DNA of 64,000 bases from Alphaproteobacteria bacterium (GCA_023150455.1 JAKLKW010000001.1:1-64000), one strand, 5' to 3'; counted from the stretch's first letter, positions 33,091-44,672 are shown. Numbers and translations: made by a program. The notes: generated from the sequence alone by a model not told the origin.

Positions 33091-34056
33091 ATGACGGAAG
33101 CGGTGCTCGAAGTGCGCGACCTGCGCACGCGCTTCGCCATCCACGGCGCCTCGATCGAGGTCGTGCGCGGGGTCGACCTCGCGGTGGCACCGGGCGAGGT
33201 GCTGGGGTTGATCGGCGAGTCGGGCTCGGGCAAGACCGTGACGGGCCTGTCGATCCTGCGCCTGGCGCCCGAGAACGCGCGCGTCAGCGCCCGGTCGATC
33301 GCCGTCCAGGGCCAGGACCTGCAGGCGCTGTCCGACGCCGCGTTCGACGAGCTGCGCGGCCGCCGCCTGGCGATGATCTTCCAGAACCCGGTCGGGGCCT
33401 TCAACCCGGCCAAGCGTGTCGACTGGCACCTGCGCCAGGTCGTCATCCGGCGCCAGGGCCAGGACGCGGGCTGGGCCGAGGCCGCGCGCGCGGCGCTCAT
33501 CGGCGTCGGCATTCCGCATCCGGATCGCGTGCTCAGGCTCTATCCGCACCAGCTCAGCGGCGGCATGGCGCAGCGCATCCTGATCGCCATGGTGCTGGCG
33601 CTCGAGCCCGACCTGATCGTCGCCGACGAGCCGACCACCAATCTCGACAACATCGTCGAGCGCCAGATCCTGGCGCTGTTCCGCCGGCTGCAGGGCCGGC
33701 TCAGCGCCGCCTTCATCTTCATCACGCACGACATGTCGATCGCCGCCGCCTTGTGCGACCGCATCGCCGTGATGTATGCCGGCCGGATCGTCGAGGTCGG
33801 CCCGACCGCCGAGGTGTTCGCGCGGCCGCGCCATCCCTACACCAAGGGCCTGGTCGCGACCGCGCTGGCGCTGAAGCACAAGGCCGAGCGGCTGAAGGAG
33901 ATCGCGGGCGAGCTGCCCAACCTCGCGGCGCCCCCGCCCGGTTGCCTGTTCGCGCCGCGCTGCGCCGAGGTCATGGCGCGCTGCCGCGGCGAGGAGCCGC
34001 CGGCACTGGGGCCGGCGTCGCACCGCGTGCGCTGCTTCCGGGTGGAAGACGCATGA
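33091..34056 (+). CDS. Dipeptide/oligopeptide ABC transporter ATP-binding protein, DppD/OppD-like
   Basis: Walker A GESGSGKTV; HQLSGGMAQRILIAMVLALEPDLIVADEPTTNLD; C-terminal oligopeptide region PGCLFAPRCAEVMARC. Confidence 0.95.
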   Translation: MTEAVLEVRDLRTRFAIHGASIEVVRGVDLAVAPGEVLGLIGESGSGKTVTGLSILRLAPENARVSARSIAVQGQDLQALSDAAFDELRGRRLAMIFQNPVGAFNPAKRVDWHLRQVVIRRQGQDAGWAEAARAALIGVGIPHPDRVLRLYPHQLSGGMAQRILIAMVLALEPDLIVADEPTTNLDNIVERQILALFRRLQGRLSAAFIFITHDMSIAAALCDRIAVMYAGRIVEVGPTAEVFARPRHPYTKGLVATALALKHKAERLKEIAGELPNLAAPPPGCLFAPRCAEVMARCRGEEPPALGPASHRVRCFRVEDA

Positions 34057-35048
34057 CCGCCGCCGCGTCGGGCCTGCTGCGCCTGGAGAACCTGTCCGTT
34101 ACCTTCCCGGGCAGGGGCCTCGGGCCCGAGTCGTCGCGCCGGCTGCGCGCCGTCGACGACGTGACGCTGCACATCGCGCCGGGCGAGGTGCTCGGCCTCG
34201 TCGGCGAGTCGGGCAGCGGCAAGACCACGCTGGCCAAGGCGCTGCTGCGCCTCTACCGGCCGAGCGACGGCCGCATCCTGTTCCGCGGGGCGGACCTGGC
34301 GGCCTTGGGCGAGCGCGCGCTGAAGCCCTTCCGCCGCGACCTGCAGATGGTGTTCCAGGATCCGCTGTCGTCGTTCAACCCGCGCCAGACCGTGTTCGAG
34401 GCGCTGGCGACGCCGCTCCGGCTGCACAAGGTCTGCGCCCGGGCCGAGATCGCCGGCCGCGTCGCCGAGCTGCTGGCGCAGGTCGGCCTGTCGCCGTCCT
34501 TCCGCGACCGCTTTCCGCACGAGCTCTCGGGCGGGCAGCTGCAGCGCGTGGCGATCGGCCGCGCGCTGGCGCTCTCTCCCAGCCTGCTGGTGGCCGACGA
34601 GGCCGTGTCGAAGCTCGACGTCTCGGTGCGCGCGCAGATCCTCAATCTCTTGAAGGACATCCGCGAGCGGCACGGCGTGTCGATCCTGTTCATCACGCAC
34701 GACCTGCACGTCGCGCGCTATCTCTGCGACCGCGTCGGCGTGATGTATTTCGGCAAGCTGGTCGAGCTCGGCGGGACCGAGCGGGTATTCGGGCAGCCGC
34801 GCCATCCCTATACGCGGGCACTCCTCGGGACGCTCGAGGACGCGCTCGGCGGCGGCATCGAGGAGCAGATCGCGCCGCCGTCGCCGGCCGGCTGCCGCTA
34901 TGCCTCGCGCTGCCGCCATCGCATCGATGCCTGCGGCGCGGCGCACCCGGCGCTCGAGGCGGCAGCGGATGCAGGCGGCGGCCACGCCGTCGCCTGCATC
35001 CGCTGGCGCGCGCTTCTGGACAGCCACACGACGGACAAAAGCGAGTAG
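34053..35048 (+). CDS. Dipeptide/oligopeptide ABC transporter ATP-binding protein, DppF/OppF-like
   Basis: Walker A GESGSGKTTLAKA; FPHELSGGQLQRVAIGRALALSPSLLVADEAVSKLDVS; ATG overlaps the previous stop. Confidence 0.95.
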   Translation: MTAAASGLLRLENLSVTFPGRGLGPESSRRLRAVDDVTLHIAPGEVLGLVGESGSGKTTLAKALLRLYRPSDGRILFRGADLAALGERALKPFRRDLQMVFQDPLSSFNPRQTVFEALATPLRLHKVCARAEIAGRVAELLAQVGLSPSFRDRFPHELSGGQLQRVAIGRALALSPSLLVADEAVSKLDVSVRAQILNLLKDIRERHGVSILFITHDLHVARYLCDRVGVMYFGKLVELGGTERVFGQPRHPYTRALLGTLEDALGGGIEEQIAPPSPAGCRYASRCRHRIDACGAAHPALEAAADAGGGHAVACIRWRALLDSHTTDKSE

Positions 35049-35053
35049 GTACG

Positions 35054-37126
35054 ATGGTCGCAAACACGAACATGCCGGCGGGCAAGCCCGCCTCCGCCGT
35101 CCGGGATCCGCTGCTGCAGCCGTTCCGCATCCGGCACCTGAACCTGAAGAACCGCGTCATGAGCACCAGCCATGCCTGCGGACTCGAGGTCGACGGCATG
35201 CCGGTCGAGCGCTACCAGCTCTACCACGAGGGCAAGGCGCGCGGCGGCATCGCGCTCACCATGTTCGGCGGCTCGTCCAACGTGGCGCCCGACTCGCCCA
35301 ACGTCTTCCGCCAGCTCAATGTCGGGATCGATGCGGTCATCCCGTATCTCCAGCAGTTCTCCGCGCGCATCCACAAGCACGGCGCGGCGCTGATGTGCCA
35401 GATCACGCATCTGGGGCGCCGCGGCGAGCCCTACGCGTCCAACTGGCTGCCGACCATCGCGCCGTCGCCGATCCGCGAGACGCTGCACCGCAGCTTCCCC
35501 AAGGAGATGGACGAGAACGACATCGAGCGCGTGGTCAAGGCCTACGGCGCGGCGGCGCTGCGCTGCAAGCAAGGCGGGCTCGACGGCATCGAGACGCTGG
35601 CCGGCGGCCACCTGATCGGCCAGTTCCTCTCGCCCAAGACCAACAAGCGCACCGACAGGTACGGCGGCTCGCTCGCCAACCGCTGCCGGTTCGGGCTGAT
35701 GGTGTTCGAGGAGATCCGCCGCCGCGTCGGCGACGACTTCATCGTCGGCTTCCGCTACGTCGTCGACGAGGGCGGCGCGCAAGGAGGCCTCGGCTTCGAG
35801 GAATGCGTCGAGATCGCGCGCGTGTTCCAGGACACCGGCACGATCGACTTCTTCAACGCGATCTACGGACGGATGGACACCGAGATCGGCCTGGCCGTCG
35901 ACAACATGCCGGGCATGGCCTCGCCGATCGCGCCCTGGCTCGAGGCGGTCGGGCGTTTCAAGCGCGAGGTGAAGCTGCCGGTGTTCCACGCCGCGCGCAT
36001 CGCCGACATCGCGACGGCCAGGCACGCGATCCGCGAGGGGCTGCTCGACATGGTGGCGATGACGCGCGCGCACATCGCCGACCCGAATATCGTCGCCAAG
36101 CTCGAGGCCGGCCAGGAGGACCGCATCCGCCCCTGCGTCGGCGCGACGCACTGCCAGTCGCCGTACCGGCCGCACTGCCTGCACAACCCGGCGACCGGGC
36201 GGGAAACCAGCCTGCCGCAGTCGGTGCCGCGGGCGGAGAAGCCGGGCAGGAAGATCGTGGTCGTCGGCGGCGGACCGGCGGGCCTCGAGGCGGCGCGCGT
36301 CGCGGCCGAGCGCGGCCACAAGGTGATGCTGTTCGAGGCTGCCGACCGCGTCGGCGGCCAGGTGCTGCTGGCGGCGCGCGCGAGCTGGCGCAAGGACCTG
36401 GTCGGCATCGTCGACTGGCGCAAGCGCGAGCTCGACCGCCTGGGCGTCGAGCTGCGGCTCAACACCTACGCCGAGATGAAGGACGTGCTGGCCGAGAAGC
36501 CCGAGGTGGTGATCGTCGCCACGGGCGGCGTCCCCGATCTCGCCTGGCTGCCGGGCGCCGAGCTCGCCACCAGCGTGTGGGACGCGATCGGCGGCAGCGT
36601 GACGCTGGCGCCCGAGGTGATCGTCTATGACGGCACCGGCCGCCATCCCGCGCCGCAGGTGGCGGAGCTCGCGATCGCCCAGGGCAAGCGCGCGCAACTC
36701 GTGTCGATCGACGGCATGATCGCGCAGGAGCTGACCTACGCCGAGCGCGTGATCTGGAAGAAGCGCGCCTACGAGCTGGGCCTGCCGGTCACGCTCGACC
36801 ACGAGATCGAGAAGATCGAGCGCCGCGGCAACCGCCTGGTCGCAACCTTCCGCAACCTGGTCACGCACCAACCGGTCGAGCGCGAGGCCGACCAGGTGAT
36901 CGTCGAGCACGGCACCGCGCCGGCCGACCACGTGTTCCAGGAGCTGAAGGCCGCCTCGTCCAACGACGGCGTGACCGACATCGACGCGCTGCTGGCGCTC
37001 CGGAAGCAGCCGCGCGGTCGCCGCGCCGATGCGCCGTTCGAGCTCCACCGCATCGGCGACGCCGTCGCCAGCCGCAACATCCAGGCCGCGGTGCTGGATG
37101 CGCTGCGGCTGTGTTTGGCGTTGTGA
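35054..37126 (+). CDS. FMN/FAD NADH:flavin oxidoreductase, OYE/trimethylamine dehydrogenase-like (N-methyl demethylase subfamily likely)
   Basis: N-terminal OYE barrel (LLQPFRIRHLNLKNRVMSTSHACGLEVDGMP..., GHLIGQFLSPKTNKRTDRYGGSLANRCRF), Cys segment RPCVGATHCQSPYRPHCLHNPATGRE, C-terminal FAD/NAD domain KIVVVGGGPAGLEAARVAAERGHKVMLFEA. Confidence 0.93.
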   Translation: MVANTNMPAGKPASAVRDPLLQPFRIRHLNLKNRVMSTSHACGLEVDGMPVERYQLYHEGKARGGIALTMFGGSSNVAPDSPNVFRQLNVGIDAVIPYLQQFSARIHKHGAALMCQITHLGRRGEPYASNWLPTIAPSPIRETLHRSFPKEMDENDIERVVKAYGAAALRCKQGGLDGIETLAGGHLIGQFLSPKTNKRTDRYGGSLANRCRFGLMVFEEIRRRVGDDFIVGFRYVVDEGGAQGGLGFEECVEIARVFQDTGTIDFFNAIYGRMDTEIGLAVDNMPGMASPIAPWLEAVGRFKREVKLPVFHAARIADIATARHAIREGLLDMVAMTRAHIADPNIVAKLEAGQEDRIRPCVGATHCQSPYRPHCLHNPATGRETSLPQSVPRAEKPGRKIVVVGGGPAGLEAARVAAERGHKVMLFEAADRVGGQVLLAARASWRKDLVGIVDWRKRELDRLGVELRLNTYAEMKDVLAEKPEVVIVATGGVPDLAWLPGAELATSVWDAIGGSVTLAPEVIVYDGTGRHPAPQVAELAIAQGKRAQLVSIDGMIAQELTYAERVIWKKRAYELGLPVTLDHEIEKIERRGNRLVATFRNLVTHQPVEREADQVIVEHGTAPADHVFQELKAASSNDGVTDIDALLALRKQPRGRRADAPFELHRIGDAVASRNIQAAVLDALRLCLAL

Positions 37127-37220: not shown

Positions 37221-37264
37221 TTGACGCCGCCGGCGCCGCTCGTATACTACTGACATATCACAAG
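37221..37264 (+). promoter_or_regulatory. Promoter plus shared 23-bp motif upstream of PhyH gene
   Basis: TTGACG (37221-37226), 16 bp, TATACT (37243-37248). Motif GTATACTACTGACATATCACAAG at 37242-37264. Confidence 0.55.
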
Positions 37265-37298
37265 CGCGGCGCCCGAACGCCGCGAGGGAAGGGACGAG

Positions 37299-38213
37299 AT
37301 GACGCCGGAGGACATCCTCAAGCACCGTCCGCGCGTGCTGAGCCGGAAGCAGCGCGAATCCTATTTCGAGAACGGCTATATCCTGCTGGAGAAGATCGTC
37401 CCGCCGGACATCGTCGAGCGGCTGCGCGCGACGACGACGGAGATGGTCAACCGCAGCCGGTCGGTCACGAAGTCGGACGCGGTGTGGGACCTGGAGAACG
37501 GGCACAGCGCGGCGCGGCCGCGCCTCAGGCGGCTGTCCAGTCCCTGCGACCATCATCCGGCCTACTGGGACTACGTGTCGAAGAGCCTGCTCGCCGACAT
37601 CGCCGCCGACCTGCTGGGCCCGGACGTCAAGTTCCATCACTCGAAGCTCAATTTCAAAGCATCGGAGGGCGGCACCGAGGTCAAGTGGCACCAGGACATC
37701 CAGTTCTGGCCGCACACGAACTACTCGCTCTTGACGATCGGCACCTACATCTATGACTGCGGCCTGGAAAACGGCGCGCTGGGCGTGTTTCCGGGCAGCC
37801 ACCTGGGGCCGCTCCACGACCAGTACAACGACAAAGGCCAATGGACCGGGTGCCTCGGCGACGGCGACGTGGCGAAGCTCGACCAGTCCAAGGCCGTCTA
37901 TCTCTGCGGCCCGGCCGGATCGCTGACCATCCATCACTGCCGCACCATCCACGGCAGCAAGCCGAACGATTCGGCCGTGGACCGGCCGCTGTTCCTGGTC
38001 ACGCTGGCCTCGTCGGACGCCCATGCCTACACGCCGAACCCGCTGAAGTCGCGCTACGAGCGCGTGCACATCAGGGGCGAGAAGGCGCGCTGGGCGCATC
38101 ACGATCCGCGGCCCTGCCTGGTGCCGCCGGACTGGTCGGGCGGCTATACCTCGATCTTCGCGCTGCAGCAGGGCGAAGAGGGAGCCGAGCCGATCCGCGC
38201 CTATGCGGGCTGA
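37299..38213 (+). CDS. Phytanoyl-CoA dioxygenase (PhyH) family Fe(II)/2OG-type oxygenase
   Basis: VKWHQDIQFWPHTNYSLLTIGTYIYDC (HxD), ENGALGVFPGSHLG, distal His in TIHHCRTIHGSKPNDS. Confidence 0.93.
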   Translation: MTPEDILKHRPRVLSRKQRESYFENGYILLEKIVPPDIVERLRATTTEMVNRSRSVTKSDAVWDLENGHSAARPRLRRLSSPCDHHPAYWDYVSKSLLADIAADLLGPDVKFHHSKLNFKASEGGTEVKWHQDIQFWPHTNYSLLTIGTYIYDCGLENGALGVFPGSHLGPLHDQYNDKGQWTGCLGDGDVAKLDQSKAVYLCGPAGSLTIHHCRTIHGSKPNDSAVDRPLFLVTLASSDAHAYTPNPLKSRYERVHIRGEKARWAHHDPRPCLVPPDWSGGYTSIFALQQGEEGAEPIRAYAG

Positions 38214-38217
38214 ACGT

Positions 38218-38409
38218 TCAGCCGCAGCGGCGGCAGCGCACCTGCTCGAAGATCGTTTTCCACTCGCCGTCCGTGGCGGCATAGTCGAGCAGGCAGCGCA
38301 GCGCCTTGGACGCGTCCGGCATGCCGTATTTGCGCGCCACGTCGTTCAGCATCGCGAGCGAGTCCGGATAGATCTCGAAGGTGACGCGCAGCTTCGGCAG
38401 GTCGGACAT
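38218..38409 (-). CDS. Small ribbon-helix-helix-like protein with C-terminal CxxCG
   Basis: 63 aa: MSDLPKLRVTFEIYPDSLAMLNDVARKYGMPDASKALRCLLDYAATDGEWKTIFEQVRCRRCG; beta-alpha-alpha pattern; tail-to-tail with PhyH. Confidence 0.65.
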   Translation of the reverse strand: MSDLPKLRVTFEIYPDSLAMLNDVARKYGMPDASKALRCLLDYAATDGEWKTIFEQVRCRRCG

Positions 38410-38493
38410 CCGGCGGCTCCTCTGCGGGCGCCCGTATCACTATAGCAACGCGGCCGGGGAGTCGCGGTCGAAGGCGAAGGGGAGGGAAGCATC

Positions 38494-38793
38494 ATGAAAG
38501 TCTACGAGGGCGGCCGCAGCCTGGCCGGCGCCGTCGTCACGGTCGACGGGCGCAAGCTCGACCCGCGCTTCGACCTGAAGCGCCTGTCGCCGGCGGGATT
38601 CGAGTGGACCTACGAGGGCACCGGACCGGCGCAGCTGGCGCTGGCGCTCCTGGCCGACCATCTCGGCGACGACCAGAAGGCGCTCCGCCTGCACGAGGCG
38701 TTCATGCGCGCGGTCGTGGCCGAGCTCGACAATTCCTGGCGCATGACCTCGGCCGACATCGACGAGGCGCTCGCGCGGCTCGGCGGCGGCTGA
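38494..38793 (+). CDS. DUF6166-like small protein
   Basis: 99 aa: VTVDGRKLDPRFDLKRLSPAGFEWTYEGTGPAQLALALLADHLGDDQKALRLHEAFMRAVVAEL; RBS ggaggga upstream. Confidence 0.75.
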   Translation: MKVYEGGRSLAGAVVTVDGRKLDPRFDLKRLSPAGFEWTYEGTGPAQLALALLADHLGDDQKALRLHEAFMRAVVAELDNSWRMTSADIDEALARLGGG

Positions 38794-38843
38794 GGCGCGC
38801 CCGATCATTGACGCGCCGCGGCGCCGTCCGTAGGATGCCGGAG

Positions 38844-38867
38844 ATATATTTGTCGTATACCACGACA
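38844..38867 (+). promoter_or_regulatory. Shared 23-bp motif upstream of TRAP operon
   Basis: ATATATTTGTCGTATACCACGAC, containing inverted repeat TGTCGT-atacc-ACGACA. Confidence 0.5.
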
Positions 38868-38912
38868 CACAACAGGCGGCGCAAAGTCGCCAAGCCCTTG
38901 GGAGGGAACGGT

Positions 38913-39986
38913 ATGAAGACTCGGAATCTGACTCGTCGCACCGTGTTGGCCGGCACCGGCGCCGGCGTCGTCGCCGCGCCGATGATCGTCCGCGAGGCCA
39001 GGGCGCAGAGCGTCTCGTGGAAGATGGCGACGGCCTGGGCCGGCGGCCCGCTGATGGAGATCGGCGCCAAGGCGTTCTGCGAGCGCGTCGAGCTGCTGAC
39101 CGACGGCCGCGTCAAGGTGCAGGCCTTCCCCGGCGGCGCGCTCGGCAACGCGCTCAAGGTGTCGGAGACGGTCAAGAACGGCGTCGCCGAGTGCGGCCAT
39201 ACCTGGATGGGCTACGACTGGGGCGCCGACACCACGACCGTCGTGTTCGGCGGCTATGCCGGCAGCTTCGACACCGAGCGCATGCTGCACTGGATCTACG
39301 AGGCCGGCGGCATCGACCTGCAGCGCAAGTTCCGCGACGAGACGGCGGGCGTGGTGTCGATGCCGCTGTTCATCCGCACCGCCGAGGTGTTCATGCACTC
39401 GCGCAAGCCGGTCAGGTCGCTGGCGGACCTCAACGGCCTGAAGCTGCGCACCGCCGGCGCCTGGCTCGACATGGCGAAGTCGATGGGCGCGGCGCCGGTC
39501 ACCACCGCGGGCGGCGAGATCTACACCGCGCTCGAGCGCGGCGTGATCGATGCGACCGAGTGGGGCACGCTGTGGGAGAACATCGAGCCCGGATTCTACA
39601 AGGTCGCCAAGTACCTGATCATCCCGGGCGTGCACCAGCCGACGGCGCCGTTCGAGCTGTGCATCAACAAGGCCGCCTGGGCCAAGGTTCCGCCCAAGGA
39701 CCAGAAGCTGGTCGAGCTGGCCGCCAAGCTCGTCACCTTCGAAAGCTGGACGCGCATCGGCCAGGAGGACGCGAAGTCGCTCGACGTCTACCGCAAGGCG
39801 GGCAACGAGATCATCGAGCTTGCGCCCGAGGTGCAGTACGAGACCAAGAACGTGGCCCTCAAATGGGCCGCGGCCCAGGCGGAGAAAAACAAGTGGTTCA
39901 AGCAGGTGCTCGACCACCAGCTCGCCTTCGAAAAGCTGTGGACCGGCGCCGACCGCTACCGCAAGGTGCTGGTCAAGCAGAGCTGA
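38913..39986 (+). CDS. dctP: TRAP transporter substrate-binding protein, DctP family
   Basis: Tat-like leader MKTRNLTRRTVLAGTGAGVVAAPMIVREARA; VEVFMHSRKPVRSLADLNGLKLRTAG; GVIDATEWGTLWENIEPGFYKVAKY. Confidence 0.95.
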   Translation: MKTRNLTRRTVLAGTGAGVVAAPMIVREARAQSVSWKMATAWAGGPLMEIGAKAFCERVELLTDGRVKVQAFPGGALGNALKVSETVKNGVAECGHTWMGYDWGADTTTVVFGGYAGSFDTERMLHWIYEAGGIDLQRKFRDETAGVVSMPLFIRTAEVFMHSRKPVRSLADLNGLKLRTAGAWLDMAKSMGAAPVTTAGGEIYTALERGVIDATEWGTLWENIEPGFYKVAKYLIIPGVHQPTAPFELCINKAAWAKVPPKDQKLVELAAKLVTFESWTRIGQEDAKSLDVYRKAGNEIIELAPEVQYETKNVALKWAAAQAEKNKWFKQVLDHQLAFEKLWTGADRYRKVLVKQS

Positions 39987-40000
39987 GAGCAGCCACGAGA

Positions 40001-40040
40001 ATCCGGTCCCCCCTCCCGCAGGGGGACGGGGGAACCGGAT
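40001..40040 (+). promoter_or_regulatory. Intercistronic stem-loop between dctP and dctQ
   Basis: ATCCGGT-CCCCCC ... GGGGG-a-ACCGGAT inverted repeat. Confidence 0.5.
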
Positions 40041-40048
40041 AGTCTCCC

Positions 40049-40564
40049 ATGCGGGCGCTCTGCCGCTGGATCGACCGCGTCAACGCGGCCACCGGGACGG
40101 TCGCGGCCTGGCTGATCGCGCCGCTGATCGGCGCGATGTGCTACGAGGTGGCGGCGCGCTACCTGTTCAACGCGCCCACCATCTGGGCCTACGAGCTCGC
40201 CTATCTCCTGACCGGCTCGGGCTGGCTGCTCGGCATGGCCTATACGCTCAGCCGGGGCGCGCATATCCGCATCGACGTGCTGTACGTCAACCTGCGGCCG
40301 CGCGGCCAGGCGCTGGTCGACCTTGCCGGCTACGTGTTGCTGCTGCTGCCTTTCATCCTGTGGCTGACGTCGACGCTCGACGACCGGGCGATCGCCGCGT
40401 TCCAGAGCGGCGAGAAGACCGGACAGTCCGCCTGGAACCCGCCGCTCTGGCCGTTCCGCGCCGTGTTCTTCGTGAGCTTCGCGCTGCTGGCATTGCAGGT
40501 CGTGGGCGAGATCCTGCGCAAGCTGCCGGTCGTCTTCGGCCGCGCCGGGGCGGGGGCGCGCTGA
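40049..40564 (+). CDS. dctQ: TRAP transporter small permease, DctQ family
   Basis: Four TM segments; MCYEVAARYLFNAPTIWAYELAYLLTGSGWLLGMAYTLSRGAHIRIDVLY. Confidence 0.93.
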   Translation: MRALCRWIDRVNAATGTVAAWLIAPLIGAMCYEVAARYLFNAPTIWAYELAYLLTGSGWLLGMAYTLSRGAHIRIDVLYVNLRPRGQALVDLAGYVLLLLPFILWLTSTLDDRAIAAFQSGEKTGQSAWNPPLWPFRAVFFVSFALLALQVVGEILRKLPVVFGRAGAGAR

Positions 40565-40565
40565 G

Positions 40566-41882
40566 ATGGGCTATTCCTCGCTGCTGATCTTCCCGTTCCT
40601 GCTGTTCCTGCTCTTCGTCGGCTTCCCGGTCGCCTTCTCGATGATGGCGACGGCCTTCGTGTTCGGCGTGTGGACCTTCGGCTGGTCCTTCGTGTTCCAG
40701 GCGGCCGAGAAGATCGAGGACGTCGCCTCCAACTTCGTCCTCGCCGCCGTGCCGCTGTTCGTCTTCATGGGCTCGATGCTCGAGCGCTCGGGCGTTGCCG
40801 ACCGCCTGTTCGAGGCCATCCACATGTGGGCGCGCCGCCTGCCCGGCGGCCTCGCGATCGGCACGATCATCATGTGCATCATCTTCGCGGCGTCGAGCGG
40901 CGTGGTCGGGGCGACCGAGACGGTGATCGGCCTGCTCGCGATCCCGGTCATGATGCGGCACCACTACAACAAGGAGCTGATTGTCGGCACCATCTGCGCC
41001 GGCGGCTCGCTCGGCACCATCATCCCGCCGTCGGTCGTCGCCGTGGTGATGGGACCGCTCGCCGGGATCTCGGTCGGCGACCTGCTCGTCGGCATGGTCT
41101 TTCCCGGCCTTATCATGGCCGGGCTCTACATCGCCTACATCCTGGCGCTGTGCGTGGTCTCGCCGACCGCCGGGCCGCGCATCGCGCCGTCGCCCGACGA
41201 TCCGCCGTTTCAGGTCAAGCTGCGCGTCACCGCCGTCGCCCTGGTGCCGCCGCTGTTCATGATCTTCGCCGTGCTGGGCTCGATCATGCTCGGCTGGGCG
41301 GCGCCGACCGAGGCGGCGGCGATCGGTGCGGCCGGGGCGGTGCTGCTGACCCTGTTCTACCGCACCTTCACCTGGCGCGTGCTGCACGAGGCGGTGATGA
41401 AGACGCTGACGATCACGGCGATGATCATGGCGATCATCCTCGGCGGCAGCATGATGACCGGCGCCTTCGTCGGCTCGGGCGGCATCGCGGTGGTGCAGAA
41501 CCTCGTCAACTCCCTGTCGCTCGGCGCCTGGGGCGTGATGCTGATCGTGCTGCTGCTGGCCTTCCTGGCCGGGTTCTTCCTCGACTGGATATCCATCGTG
41601 CTGATCCTGCTGCCGATCTTCACGCCGCTGCTCAAGGCGCTCGGCGTCAACATGGTGTGGTTCTGCATCGCCATGCTGGTGGTGATCCAGACCAGCTACC
41701 TGTCGCCGCCGATGGCGCCGGCGATCTTCTACTTCCGGGCGATCAGCCCGCCCGAGATCACGACGATGCACATGTACCGCGGCGTGATCCCGTTCATCGT
41801 GCTGCAGGTTGTGACCCTGGCCATCGTGCTGGTCTGGCCGCAGACCGTGCTGTGGCTGCCCTACAAGCTGCTGGCGCCGTGA
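40566..41882 (+). CDS. dctM: TRAP transporter large permease, DctM family
   Basis: FVGFPVAFSMMATAFVFG; AVPLFVFMGSMLERSGVADRLFEAIHMWARRLPGGLAIGTIIMCIIFAASSGVVGATETVIGLLAIP; GGSLGTIIPPSV. Confidence 0.96.
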   Translation: MGYSSLLIFPFLLFLLFVGFPVAFSMMATAFVFGVWTFGWSFVFQAAEKIEDVASNFVLAAVPLFVFMGSMLERSGVADRLFEAIHMWARRLPGGLAIGTIIMCIIFAASSGVVGATETVIGLLAIPVMMRHHYNKELIVGTICAGGSLGTIIPPSVVAVVMGPLAGISVGDLLVGMVFPGLIMAGLYIAYILALCVVSPTAGPRIAPSPDDPPFQVKLRVTAVALVPPLFMIFAVLGSIMLGWAAPTEAAAIGAAGAVLLTLFYRTFTWRVLHEAVMKTLTITAMIMAIILGGSMMTGAFVGSGGIAVVQNLVNSLSLGAWGVMLIVLLLAFLAGFFLDWISIVLILLPIFTPLLKALGVNMVWFCIAMLVVIQTSYLSPPMAPAIFYFRAISPPEITTMHMYRGVIPFIVLQVVTLAIVLVWPQTVLWLPYKLLAP

Positions 41883-41923
41883 CGGCGATGCGCCGCGCGC
41901 CGATCCTTGTATGATGAGGGGCC

Positions 41924-42619
41924 ATGGCTCCGCGTCGCAAAACCACGAAGCCCCGCGCCCGTGCCGTCCTGGCCACGGCCCCGAGCCTCACCGACAAGGC
42001 CTACCGGCGGCTTGAGGAGATGATCGTCACGCTCGAGCTCGCGCCCGGCGAGGTCGTGTCGGAAACGGCGCTCAGCCGCAAGCTCGGTATCGGCCGCACG
42101 CCGATCCGCGAGGCGCTGCAGCGCCTGGCGCGCGAGAAGCTGATCGTGGTGCTGCCCCGGCGCGGCATCATGGTCTCGGAGGTCAATGTCCGCTCGCAGC
42201 TCCGGCTGCTCGAGGTCCGGCGCGAGGTCGAGCGCCTGCTCGCCCGCACCGCCGCGCGGCGCGCCAACGAGCAGGTGCGCCAGCGCTTCCGCGAGATCGC
42301 CGACGGCATGGAGGATGCGGCGCGCAAGAACGACGACGTCACCTTCATGCGGCTCGACCGCGAGTTCAACCTGCTGGAGCTGGAAGGCGCGCAGAACGAG
42401 TTCGCCGCCGGCGCCATGGCGCTGATGCACGGGCTCTCGCGGCGCTTCTGGTACATCCATTACAAGCAGGTCGCCGACATGCCGCTGGCCGCGCGCCAGC
42501 ACGCCGACATCGCCCGCGCCATCGCCGCCGGCGACGAGAAGCGGGCCGCGGCCGCGGTCGACGCCCTGATGGACTACATCGAGGCGTTCACCCGCGCCAC
42601 GGTCGACGCGGGGACGTGA
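41924..42619 (+). CDS. GntR family transcriptional regulator, FCD subfamily
   Basis: TDKAYRRLEEMIVTLELAPGEVVSETALSRKLGIGRTPIREALQRLAREKLIVVLPRRGIMVSEVN; FCD domain C-terminal. Confidence 0.94.
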   Translation: MAPRRKTTKPRARAVLATAPSLTDKAYRRLEEMIVTLELAPGEVVSETALSRKLGIGRTPIREALQRLAREKLIVVLPRRGIMVSEVNVRSQLRLLEVRREVERLLARTAARRANEQVRQRFREIADGMEDAARKNDDVTFMRLDREFNLLELEGAQNEFAAGAMALMHGLSRRFWYIHYKQVADMPLAARQHADIARAIAAGDEKRAAAAVDALMDYIEAFTRATVDAGT

Positions 42620-42661
42620 GAAGGGCCGGTGACGGGGCTGGACGCCGGGCCCCGGGGCCGA

Positions 42662-42684
42662 ATATATTGCTGATATATCACGAG
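42662..42684 (+). promoter_or_regulatory. Shared 23-bp motif upstream of fatty-acid-hydroxylase-like gene
   Basis: ATATATTGCTGATATATCACGAG, containing the perfect palindrome TGATATATCA. Confidence 0.5.
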
Positions 42685-42722: not shown

Positions 42723-43487
42723 ATGAGCATGCCGAAACGACAGGAAGCCTTCCGCGGCGACTACCGCGGGAAGGTGTCGCGCTGGTACAGCGGGCCGGGC
42801 CATGTGTTCCTGATCTATGCGATCGGGCTTGCCGGCATCTTCTACTTCACGCGCCAGATCCACGACGTCCGCTGGTACGAGTGGCTGACGATCCCGGTCG
42901 CCTTCGCCATCGCCAACTGGTTCGAGTGGTGGATCCACAAATACGTGATGCATCGCCCGATCAAGGGCTTCATGGGCATCTACAAGCGCCATACCCTGGC
43001 GCATCACCAGTTCTTCACCGAGCACGAGCCGTCGGTCGACAGCAACCGCGACTTCCGCATCGTGTTCTTCCCGCCCTACGCGCTGGCGGCGTTCATGACC
43101 GGCACGGCGGTGCCGGCGATGCTCCTGAACTGGGCCGGCTTCCCCAACATCGGGTGGCTGCTGCTCACCACCAACACGGCGATCTACCTGAACTACGAGC
43201 TGTTCCACTACTGCTGCCACGTGAAGGACGACTCGATCGTCCGGCACATCCCGTTCGTCAACACGATCCGCCGCCACCACATCGCGCACCACAACACCGC
43301 GATCATGATGGAGCGCAACTTCAACCTGACCTATCCGATCGCCGACTGGTTCTTCGGCACCAGCGATCTCGACCGCGGCGTGATCGGCCACATCTTCAAC
43401 GGCTACGACACCGCCCACGTGCGCAAGAACCTGAAGAAGGTCCGCTCGACCGCCGACGATCCGCGCGTGGCGATGGTCCGCGCGTAG
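42723..43487 (+). CDS. Sterol desaturase / fatty acid hydroxylase family membrane di-iron protein
   Basis: Histidine motifs HKYVMH, HTLAHHQFF, HYCCH, RRHHIAHHN between hydrophobic helices. Confidence 0.85.
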   Translation: MSMPKRQEAFRGDYRGKVSRWYSGPGHVFLIYAIGLAGIFYFTRQIHDVRWYEWLTIPVAFAIANWFEWWIHKYVMHRPIKGFMGIYKRHTLAHHQFFTEHEPSVDSNRDFRIVFFPPYALAAFMTGTAVPAMLLNWAGFPNIGWLLLTTNTAIYLNYELFHYCCHVKDDSIVRHIPFVNTIRRHHIAHHNTAIMMERNFNLTYPIADWFFGTSDLDRGVIGHIFNGYDTAHVRKNLKKVRSTADDPRVAMVRA

Positions 43488-43501: not shown

Positions 43502-43693
43502 ATGGCCCAGATGCAGGGCGAGATCAAGCGCAACGTCGCCTCGCTGGTCGGCGGCATCGCCATCGCCATCGTCGTGTTCGTGCTGTGGATGCTGGTGACG
43601 GGCGAGCTCGGCTGGGCCGGCACGGCCAACGTGCTGGCCGGCCTTGTCGTCGCCGGCTTGACCGGCGGCTATGTGCGGCTGGCCGATCTCTGA
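43502..43693 (+). CDS. Small two-TM membrane protein
   Basis: 63 aa: MAQMQGEIKRNVASLVGGIAIAIVVFVLWMLVTGELGWAGTANVLAGLVVAGLTGGYVRLADL; ggggaga RBS; in operon with flanking genes. Confidence 0.65.
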   Translation: MAQMQGEIKRNVASLVGGIAIAIVVFVLWMLVTGELGWAGTANVLAGLVVAGLTGGYVRLADL

Positions 43694-43742: not shown

Positions 43743-44672
43743 ATGAACGACGCGGCGAAGAAGCCCGCTTCCGCCGACGCGCCGAAAAGGCCGGCCGGCG
43801 CGGAAGCGCCGAAGAAGCGCGAGAAGCGGACCATCACCGAGATCCGCGACTCCAAGCACACCGGCGAGAAGATGGTCTACATGTCGGTGCCCGACTACAC
43901 ATCGGCGCGCTGGGCCGAGATGGCGGGGGTCGACGTGGCGGTGGTCGGCGACAGCCTGGCCATGGTGGCGCACGGCCATCCGAGCACGATCCCCGCGACC
44001 ATGGACATGATGGTGATGCACGCGCTCGCCGTGCGCCGCGGCGCGCCCGGCACCTTCGTGCTCGGCTGCATGCCCTACCAGAGCTACAACACGGTCGACC
44101 GGGCGCTCCAGAACGCCACGCGCTTCATGCAGGAATCCCTGTGCGACGCGGTCAAGCCGCAGGGCGGCAAGAGCCAGGCGCATATCCTCAAGGCCCTGGT
44201 CGACGCCGGCATCCCGACCGCCTCGCATATCGGGCTGACGCCGCACACGATCGCCATGTTCGGCGGCTTCAAGATCCAGGGCCGCACCGCCGAGGCGGCG
44301 ATGAAGATCCTCGAGGATGCGCTGGCGATCGAGGACGCCGGCTGCTTCATGCTCGAGTTCGAGGCCGTGCCGGCCCGGATCGCCGAGGTGATCTCCAAGC
44401 AGCTCACCATCCCCACGATCGGCATCGGCGCCGGCGTCGGCACCGACGGGCAGATCCTGCTCTGCTACGACCTGCTCGGCGTCTTCACCGACTTCAAGCC
44501 CAAGTTCACCAAGCGCTACACGAACCTGACCGAGGTCGCCGTCGGCGGCATCAGGCAGTACGTGGCCGAGGTCAAGGCCGGCAAGTTCCCCGACGACGAC
44601 CACAGCTACACGGTCAAGGACGAGGAATACGAGAAGTTCCTCGAGCTGGTCGAGAAGCGCAGGCAGGTGTGA
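43743..44672 (+). CDS. 3-methyl-2-oxobutanoate hydroxymethyltransferase (PanB)-like protein, divergent active site
   Basis: MAGVDVAVVGDSLAMVAHGHPSTIPATMDMM; SHIGLTPHTIAMFGGFKIQGR; IPTIGIGAGVGTDGQILLCYDLLGV. Metal-ligand positions altered (see findings). Confidence 0.9.
   Translation: MNDAAKKPASADAPKRPAGAEAPKKREKRTITEIRDSKHTGEKMVYMSVPDYTSARWAEMAGVDVAVVGDSLAMVAHGHPSTIPATMDMMVMHALAVRRGAPGTFVLGCMPYQSYNTVDRALQNATRFMQESLCDAVKPQGGKSQAHILKALVDAGIPTASHIGLTPHTIAMFGGFKIQGRTAEAAMKILEDALAIEDAGCFMLEFEAVPARIAEVISKQLTIPTIGIGAGVGTDGQILLCYDLLGVFTDFKPKFTKRYTNLTEVAVGGIRQYVAEVKAGKFPDDDHSYTVKDEEYEKFLELVEKRRQV

Follow-up and report, generated by a model that had tools for sequence, protein, structure and literature searches.

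Three repeats around a gntR gene, in a 64,000-nucleotide stretch of DNA from an alphaproteobacterium (the window), are very probably the operators of the local FCD-type GntR protein, which would act on them as a ligand-released repressor with two dimers to an operator. Each operator comprises two 10-bp palindromes (ideal TGATATATCA) at an 11-bp pitch, 21 bp in total. We regard the repeats as GntR sites with this degree of confidence because the same sites precede the same genes in many distant bacteria. They lie in the window as follows, with scores from a matrix built on orthologous loci only:

37240..37260, plus strand: operator A, TCGTATACTACTGACATATCA, with the PhyH start codon 38 bp downstream; score 23.0, rank 3 in the window
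38842..38862, plus strand: operator B, AGATATATTTGTCGTATACCA, with the dctP start codon 50 bp downstream; score 24.8, rank 1 in the window
42660..42680, plus strand: operator C, GAATATATTGCTGATATATCA, with the FAH start codon 42 bp downstream; score 24.0, rank 2 in the window

The genes of the cassette in the window are:

37299..38213, plus strand: PhyH-family Fe/2-oxoglutarate oxygenase, 304 aa (PF05721, 114.5 bits; orthologues in other cassettes)
38494..38793, plus strand: DUF6166 protein, 99 aa (PF19663, 112.9 bits; recurs in cassettes)
38913..39986, plus strand: dctP, TRAP substrate-binding protein (PF03480, 156 bits)
40049..40564, plus strand: dctQ, TRAP small membrane subunit (PF04290, 90 bits)
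40566..41882, plus strand: dctM, TRAP large membrane subunit (PF06808, 231.7 bits)
41924..42619, plus strand: gntR, FCD-domain regulator, 231 aa (PF00392, 63.4 bits; PF07729, 73.4 bits; orthologues)
42723..43487, plus strand: FAH, membrane hydroxylase-like protein with a possible fatty-acid-hydroxylase fold, 254 aa (histidine motifs; structural model)
43502..43693, plus strand: small protein with a hydrophobic stretch, 63 aa (homologue beside FAH in G185 and in some Acetobacteraceae)
43743..44672, plus strand: PanB-like protein, 309 aa (PF02548, 316.5 bits; TIGR00222, 284.1 bits)

Neither FAH nor the 63-aa small protein has a match in Pfam. The FAH histidines are invariant across 25 homologues, and in a structure comparison the predicted model of the protein was similar to Scs7p, a hydroxylase of yeast (probability 1.00, TM about 0.5, E 0.03). 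Between PhyH and the DUF6166 gene lies a 63-aa reading frame on the minus strand (38218-38409); two genomes of the same genus have homologues of it beside the cassette. Upstream of PhyH, positions 33091-37126 hold a gene for an ABC transporter of the oligopeptide type and one for a 690-aa FMN/pyridine-nucleotide oxidoreductase; the matrix scan found no operator of the GntR type at these genes. The DUF6166 gene has no operator directly before it in the window, and has one directly before it at L121, L060 and other loci.

The initial annotation had reported a 23-bp repeat at 37242-37264, 38844-38866 and 42662-42684. The sequences are present there and the repeat stands, with the conserved block beginning 2 bp earlier and stopping 4 bp earlier than claimed. 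Two of its details fall away: the terminal CRAS of its consensus is not conserved in the orthologues, and a palindrome described at the dctP site (TGTCGT-N5-ACGACA) lies outside the orthologue consensus and is peculiar to that one site. With up to three mismatches the consensus matches the three sites alone in the window, where shuffled sequences lead one to expect 0.01. The whole 5.86-Mb genome was scanned by pattern only: at no more than one mismatch the consensus finds the three window sites and no others, and its five further matches genome-wide each carry three mismatches, the reversed-pattern control giving four. A pattern derived from the orthologues finds in the same genome the three window sites and two weaker ones, C146:15822 and C111:7289. 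The latter, where an unrelated dipeptidase-like reading frame begins, was rejected as a regulon member and judged a chance match because the reversed control yields similar numbers.

Phylogenetic footprinting recovered the motif independently of the window. Orthologues of GntR, approximately 56-74% identical, came from relatives and a species-genome collection; around them PhyH, dctPQM, FAH, panB-like and DUF6166 genes recur in variable order. De novo discovery in 96 upstream regions at these orthologous loci, with the window left out, returned a 21-bp motif, TGATATAtnacTgATATATCA, with a log-likelihood of 387 against 39-61 for shuffled sequence. The resulting matrix, blind to the window, places 37240, 38842 and 42660 in ranks 1-3 (23-25 bits); the next match in the window reaches 11.9 bits and overlaps site B, and 4 Mb of simulated sequence held no match of at least 23 bits. 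At the orthologous loci the sites mark the first genes of transcription units, and the same gene lacks one where it is operon-internal. In the closest homologous locus among the regions fetched (G185) the gene order is that of the window, and PhyH, dctP and FAH are each preceded by a site.

Independent loci were sought through the panB-like and FAH proteins instead of GntR, and eight regions were fetched. A gntR gene is present in six of the eight, and all six of these have strong sites. On L135, a short contig found by its panB-like match, gntR and a site likewise occur together. In the two regions that lack gntR (L154 and L156), FAH has no site before it. One observation counts against the association, a single 17.8-bit match in L156 approximately 7 kb from FAH with no gntR nearby. 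Altogether the held-out loci gave 12 matches at 17 bits or more, with about zero expected. The claim of one regulon under the local GntR is thus well supported by genome scan, footprinting, held-out loci and co-occurrence with gntR.

Aligned over 60 unique sites, the operator has a sharp-edged 21-bp profile that reads as TGATATATCA, one free base and TGATATATCA again, with both boxes conserved, the second nearly equal to the first in match (7.2 and 7.9 of 10), and no third box. The outer half-sites are better conserved than the inner ones in this set, as they would be if a single GntR dimer, rather than two, gripped the two outer half-sites of a 21-bp inverted repeat. We consider such an arrangement rather improbable. 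The inner bases A10 and T12 are themselves conserved (0.96 bits) and complete both boxes, and binding of an FCD dimer to a palindrome of 10 bp is already documented (PMC7797058). Moreover, some cassette loci of the Acetobacteraceae have single instead of double boxes, for example CTGATATATCAG before FAH, which departs from the two-box operator and is consistent with one box per dimer. On the preferred reading two repressor dimers would sit next to each other on the same DNA face, one to each box.

The GntR protein itself lies above both curated cut-offs (PF00392, 63.4 against 27; PF07729, 73.4 against 24.3), and the short palindromic operator near target promoters that goes with an FCD-type regulator is present as 10-bp boxes conserved in the orthologues. 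Its FCD motif is D-x-x-x-N (LDREFN), the Asn being conserved in close orthologues; in many FCD proteins the corresponding motif is the D-x-x-x-H of a metal site. When discovery was run on gntR flanks alone, the close and far clades were captured by conserved coding sequence, and only the result for the H/T clade was used. In this related clade, which has His or Thr for Arg at residue 58 in the recognition helix, the 21-bp layout of the sites is kept but the boxes are TGGCATGCCA-like, a change that fits GntR as the probable binder. A one-residue specificity code at position 58 was dropped, since L092 has Arg yet TGG-type boxes.

A paralogous GntR, 41% identical, is encoded on contig C146 of the same genome with TRAP genes of its own. 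Beside it, at G000:C146:15822-15842 (L132:1501-1521), a double-box-like sequence, TTGTATACAGACTGTATATGA, precedes a divergent TRAP dctP. The relatedness of that site makes cross-binding conceivable, and hence also that the window sites serve this or another regulator with the local GntR incidental, but this is very unlikely: the window-type sites accompany the gntR orthologue across alpha- and betaproteobacteria, and the site of the paralogue differs in its outer bases (TTGT/ATGA).

Matches to consensus -35 and -10 elements were taken as promoters; five were found in the region against 0.4 expected, and they are predictions only. Three of them bear on the operators:

37221..37248, plus strand: predicted PhyH promoter, TTGACG-16-TATACT, with its -10 within operator A
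38808..38836, plus strand: predicted dctP promoter, TTGACG-17-TAGGAT, ending 5 bp upstream of operator B
42639..42668, plus strand: predicted FAH promoter, TGGACG-18-TATATT, with its -10 within operator C

The initial annotation had read the first part of the repeat as a -10 box. The predictions fit this at the PhyH and FAH sites, and at dctP they do not, the predicted -10 lying outside the motif; a geometry like that at dctP occurs at several betaproteobacterial promoters. Because the repeat is a double-box operator, its TATACT/TATATT part should be seen primarily as the left box of the operator. The partial coincidence of two sites with predicted -10 hexamers could suggest that the repeats are merely similar AT-rich promoter elements, or chance resemblances, which we find barely credible in view of the 0.01 matches expected in the window, the sharp edges of the 21-bp profile conserved across loci and the position of the dctP -10.

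Repression is the expected outcome of binding because each operator overlaps a predicted -10 or the region just after it. GntR (41924-42619) would bind all three 21-bp operators and, once bound, would block RNA polymerase at PhyH, dctPQM-gntR and FAH-TM-panB-like; polymerase blocking would be the simplest mechanism for this repression. The repressor would be freed from the operator by a small molecule, probably the substrate of the TRAP importer or a product of it. GntR is probably autoregulated through operator B, since gntR is the last gene of the dctPQM-gntR unit. Some GntR proteins, FadR among them, activate as well, and with that precedent GntR might bind here as an activator, or as activator or repressor depending on the promoter. 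This we think unlikely, since all three operators overlap the predicted -10 or directly follow it, and such a placement speaks for repression. Binding, the two dimers, repression, the inducer and the shared pathway are all elements that we infer from the DNA and protein sequences.

The closest described parallels are two VanR-group regulators: Atu1419 of Agrobacterium fabrum, of which an FCD dimer binds a 10-bp palindrome (ATGTATACAT) overlapping the -10 region (PMC7797058), and AlkR of Pseudomonas aeruginosa, of which an FCD dimer binds a 13-bp palindrome (ATTGTCAGACAAT) also overlapping the -10 region (PMC12042122). Like these, the window has an FCD-type GntR protein and short palindromes that it would bind. 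In contrast to them, the window operator has TGAT/ATCA half-sites and typically two boxes at an 11-bp pitch, where 190 bp separate the Atu1419 palindromes at atu1418-1419 (PMC7797058). In the FadR-subfamily regulons that Suvorova et al. (2015) reconstructed through comparative genomics, the operators of many groups are reported to have additional, weaker boxes at 7-12 nt from their centre, and the common consensus is TKGT/ACMA (PMC4494728). The window operator is likewise palindromic, but reads TGAT/ATCA, with a second box nearly equal to the first.

Several dimers of E. coli NanR bind cooperatively on adjacent repeats (PMC8012715), and NanR too is a GntR-type protein, resembling the putative repressor described here in governing a set of uptake and catabolism genes. 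The operator of the window has adjacent repeats at a fixed spacing (11-bp pitch), as in NanR. NanR, however, binds three direct GGTATA repeats asymmetrically and has a 32-residue N-terminal extension (PMC8012715), whereas the window operator has no direct GGTATA repeats and consists of two palindromic TGATATATCA-type boxes. At most, therefore, the operator works like that of NanR, and we do not class it as NanR.

The PanB-like protein passes the curated cut-off of TIGR00222 (284.1 against 207.55) as a full-length family match, and is 76-91% identical across cassettes. Of D45, D84 and E114, which we take to be the metal ligands of PanB, D45 alone is kept. Compared with E. coli PanB (PDB 1m3u), the protein of the window retains D45, S46, K112, H136 and E181, but all cassette orthologues that cover the two positions have Cys in place of D84 and Gln in place of E114. 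Elsewhere in G031 and G107 there is a canonical panB that keeps D84 and E114. A role of the PanB-like protein in pantothenate synthesis is possible in the window's genome and in G185, because these carry the variant only. A further PanB-like paralogue (48-54% identity), which lies beside another PhyH at several loci, carries Ala or Ser in place of D84 and Gln in place of E114.

Relatives extend the range of genes that follow the operator. In some betaproteobacteria it precedes corrinoid-protein genes and is followed downstream by a gene run that includes RACo, MTHFR, a URO-D-type methyltransferase and a pterin-binding methyltransferase. These neighbours and the glycolate-oxidase-like ones noted below hint at one-carbon or 2-hydroxyacid chemistry as a possible theme of the pathway. 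Particular substrates such as methoxyacetate or a methylated amine were considered and dropped, as no gene is specific enough.

Three loci were recorded separately. At L057:258-13192 (betaproteobacteria), the cassette adjoins genes for RACo, MTHFR, a pterin-binding methyltransferase, DUF1638 and a corrinoid protein whose N-terminal part is URO-D-like. At L064:8873-12821, in Pontibaca salina, an operator stands before genes whose products have FAD-oxidase and Fe-S CCG domains and are glycolate-oxidase-subunit-like. At L049:1292-3808, in Azospirillum oleiclasticum, the genes beside operators appear from their translations to encode an iron alcohol dehydrogenase and a protein of the isocitrate-lyase/PEP-mutase type, and that stretch showed no panB-like gene.

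The initial annotation had tied the three units into one pathway. The support extends only to co-regulation of the genes, which is conserved in both alpha- and betaproteobacteria. The make-up of the cassette, with a TRAP importer, PhyH, a membrane hydroxylase, the PanB variant and, in some relatives, corrinoid demethylation genes, suggests that it may be an undescribed catabolic route. A search of a limited literature collection turned up no paper on this regulon, so that one may still exist. We offer tentatively, at somewhat less than even confidence, an undescribed alpha- and betaproteobacterial pathway in which TRAP or ABC import would lead to PhyH and membrane hydroxylation, then to a C-C bond made or broken by the PanB variant, with one-carbon units passing to tetrahydrofolate.

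What emerges is an ordinary kind of regulator over an uncharacterised gene set. Its operator of two adjacent 10-bp palindromes offers a clean case for studies of FCD dimer cooperation. The operator would mark the members of a single uncharacterised pathway, which turns the substrate into a testable question. Among the genes so marked are one for a PanB relative that may catalyse something other than pantothenate synthesis and, in some relatives, genes for corrinoid demethylation or glycolate-oxidase-like genes.
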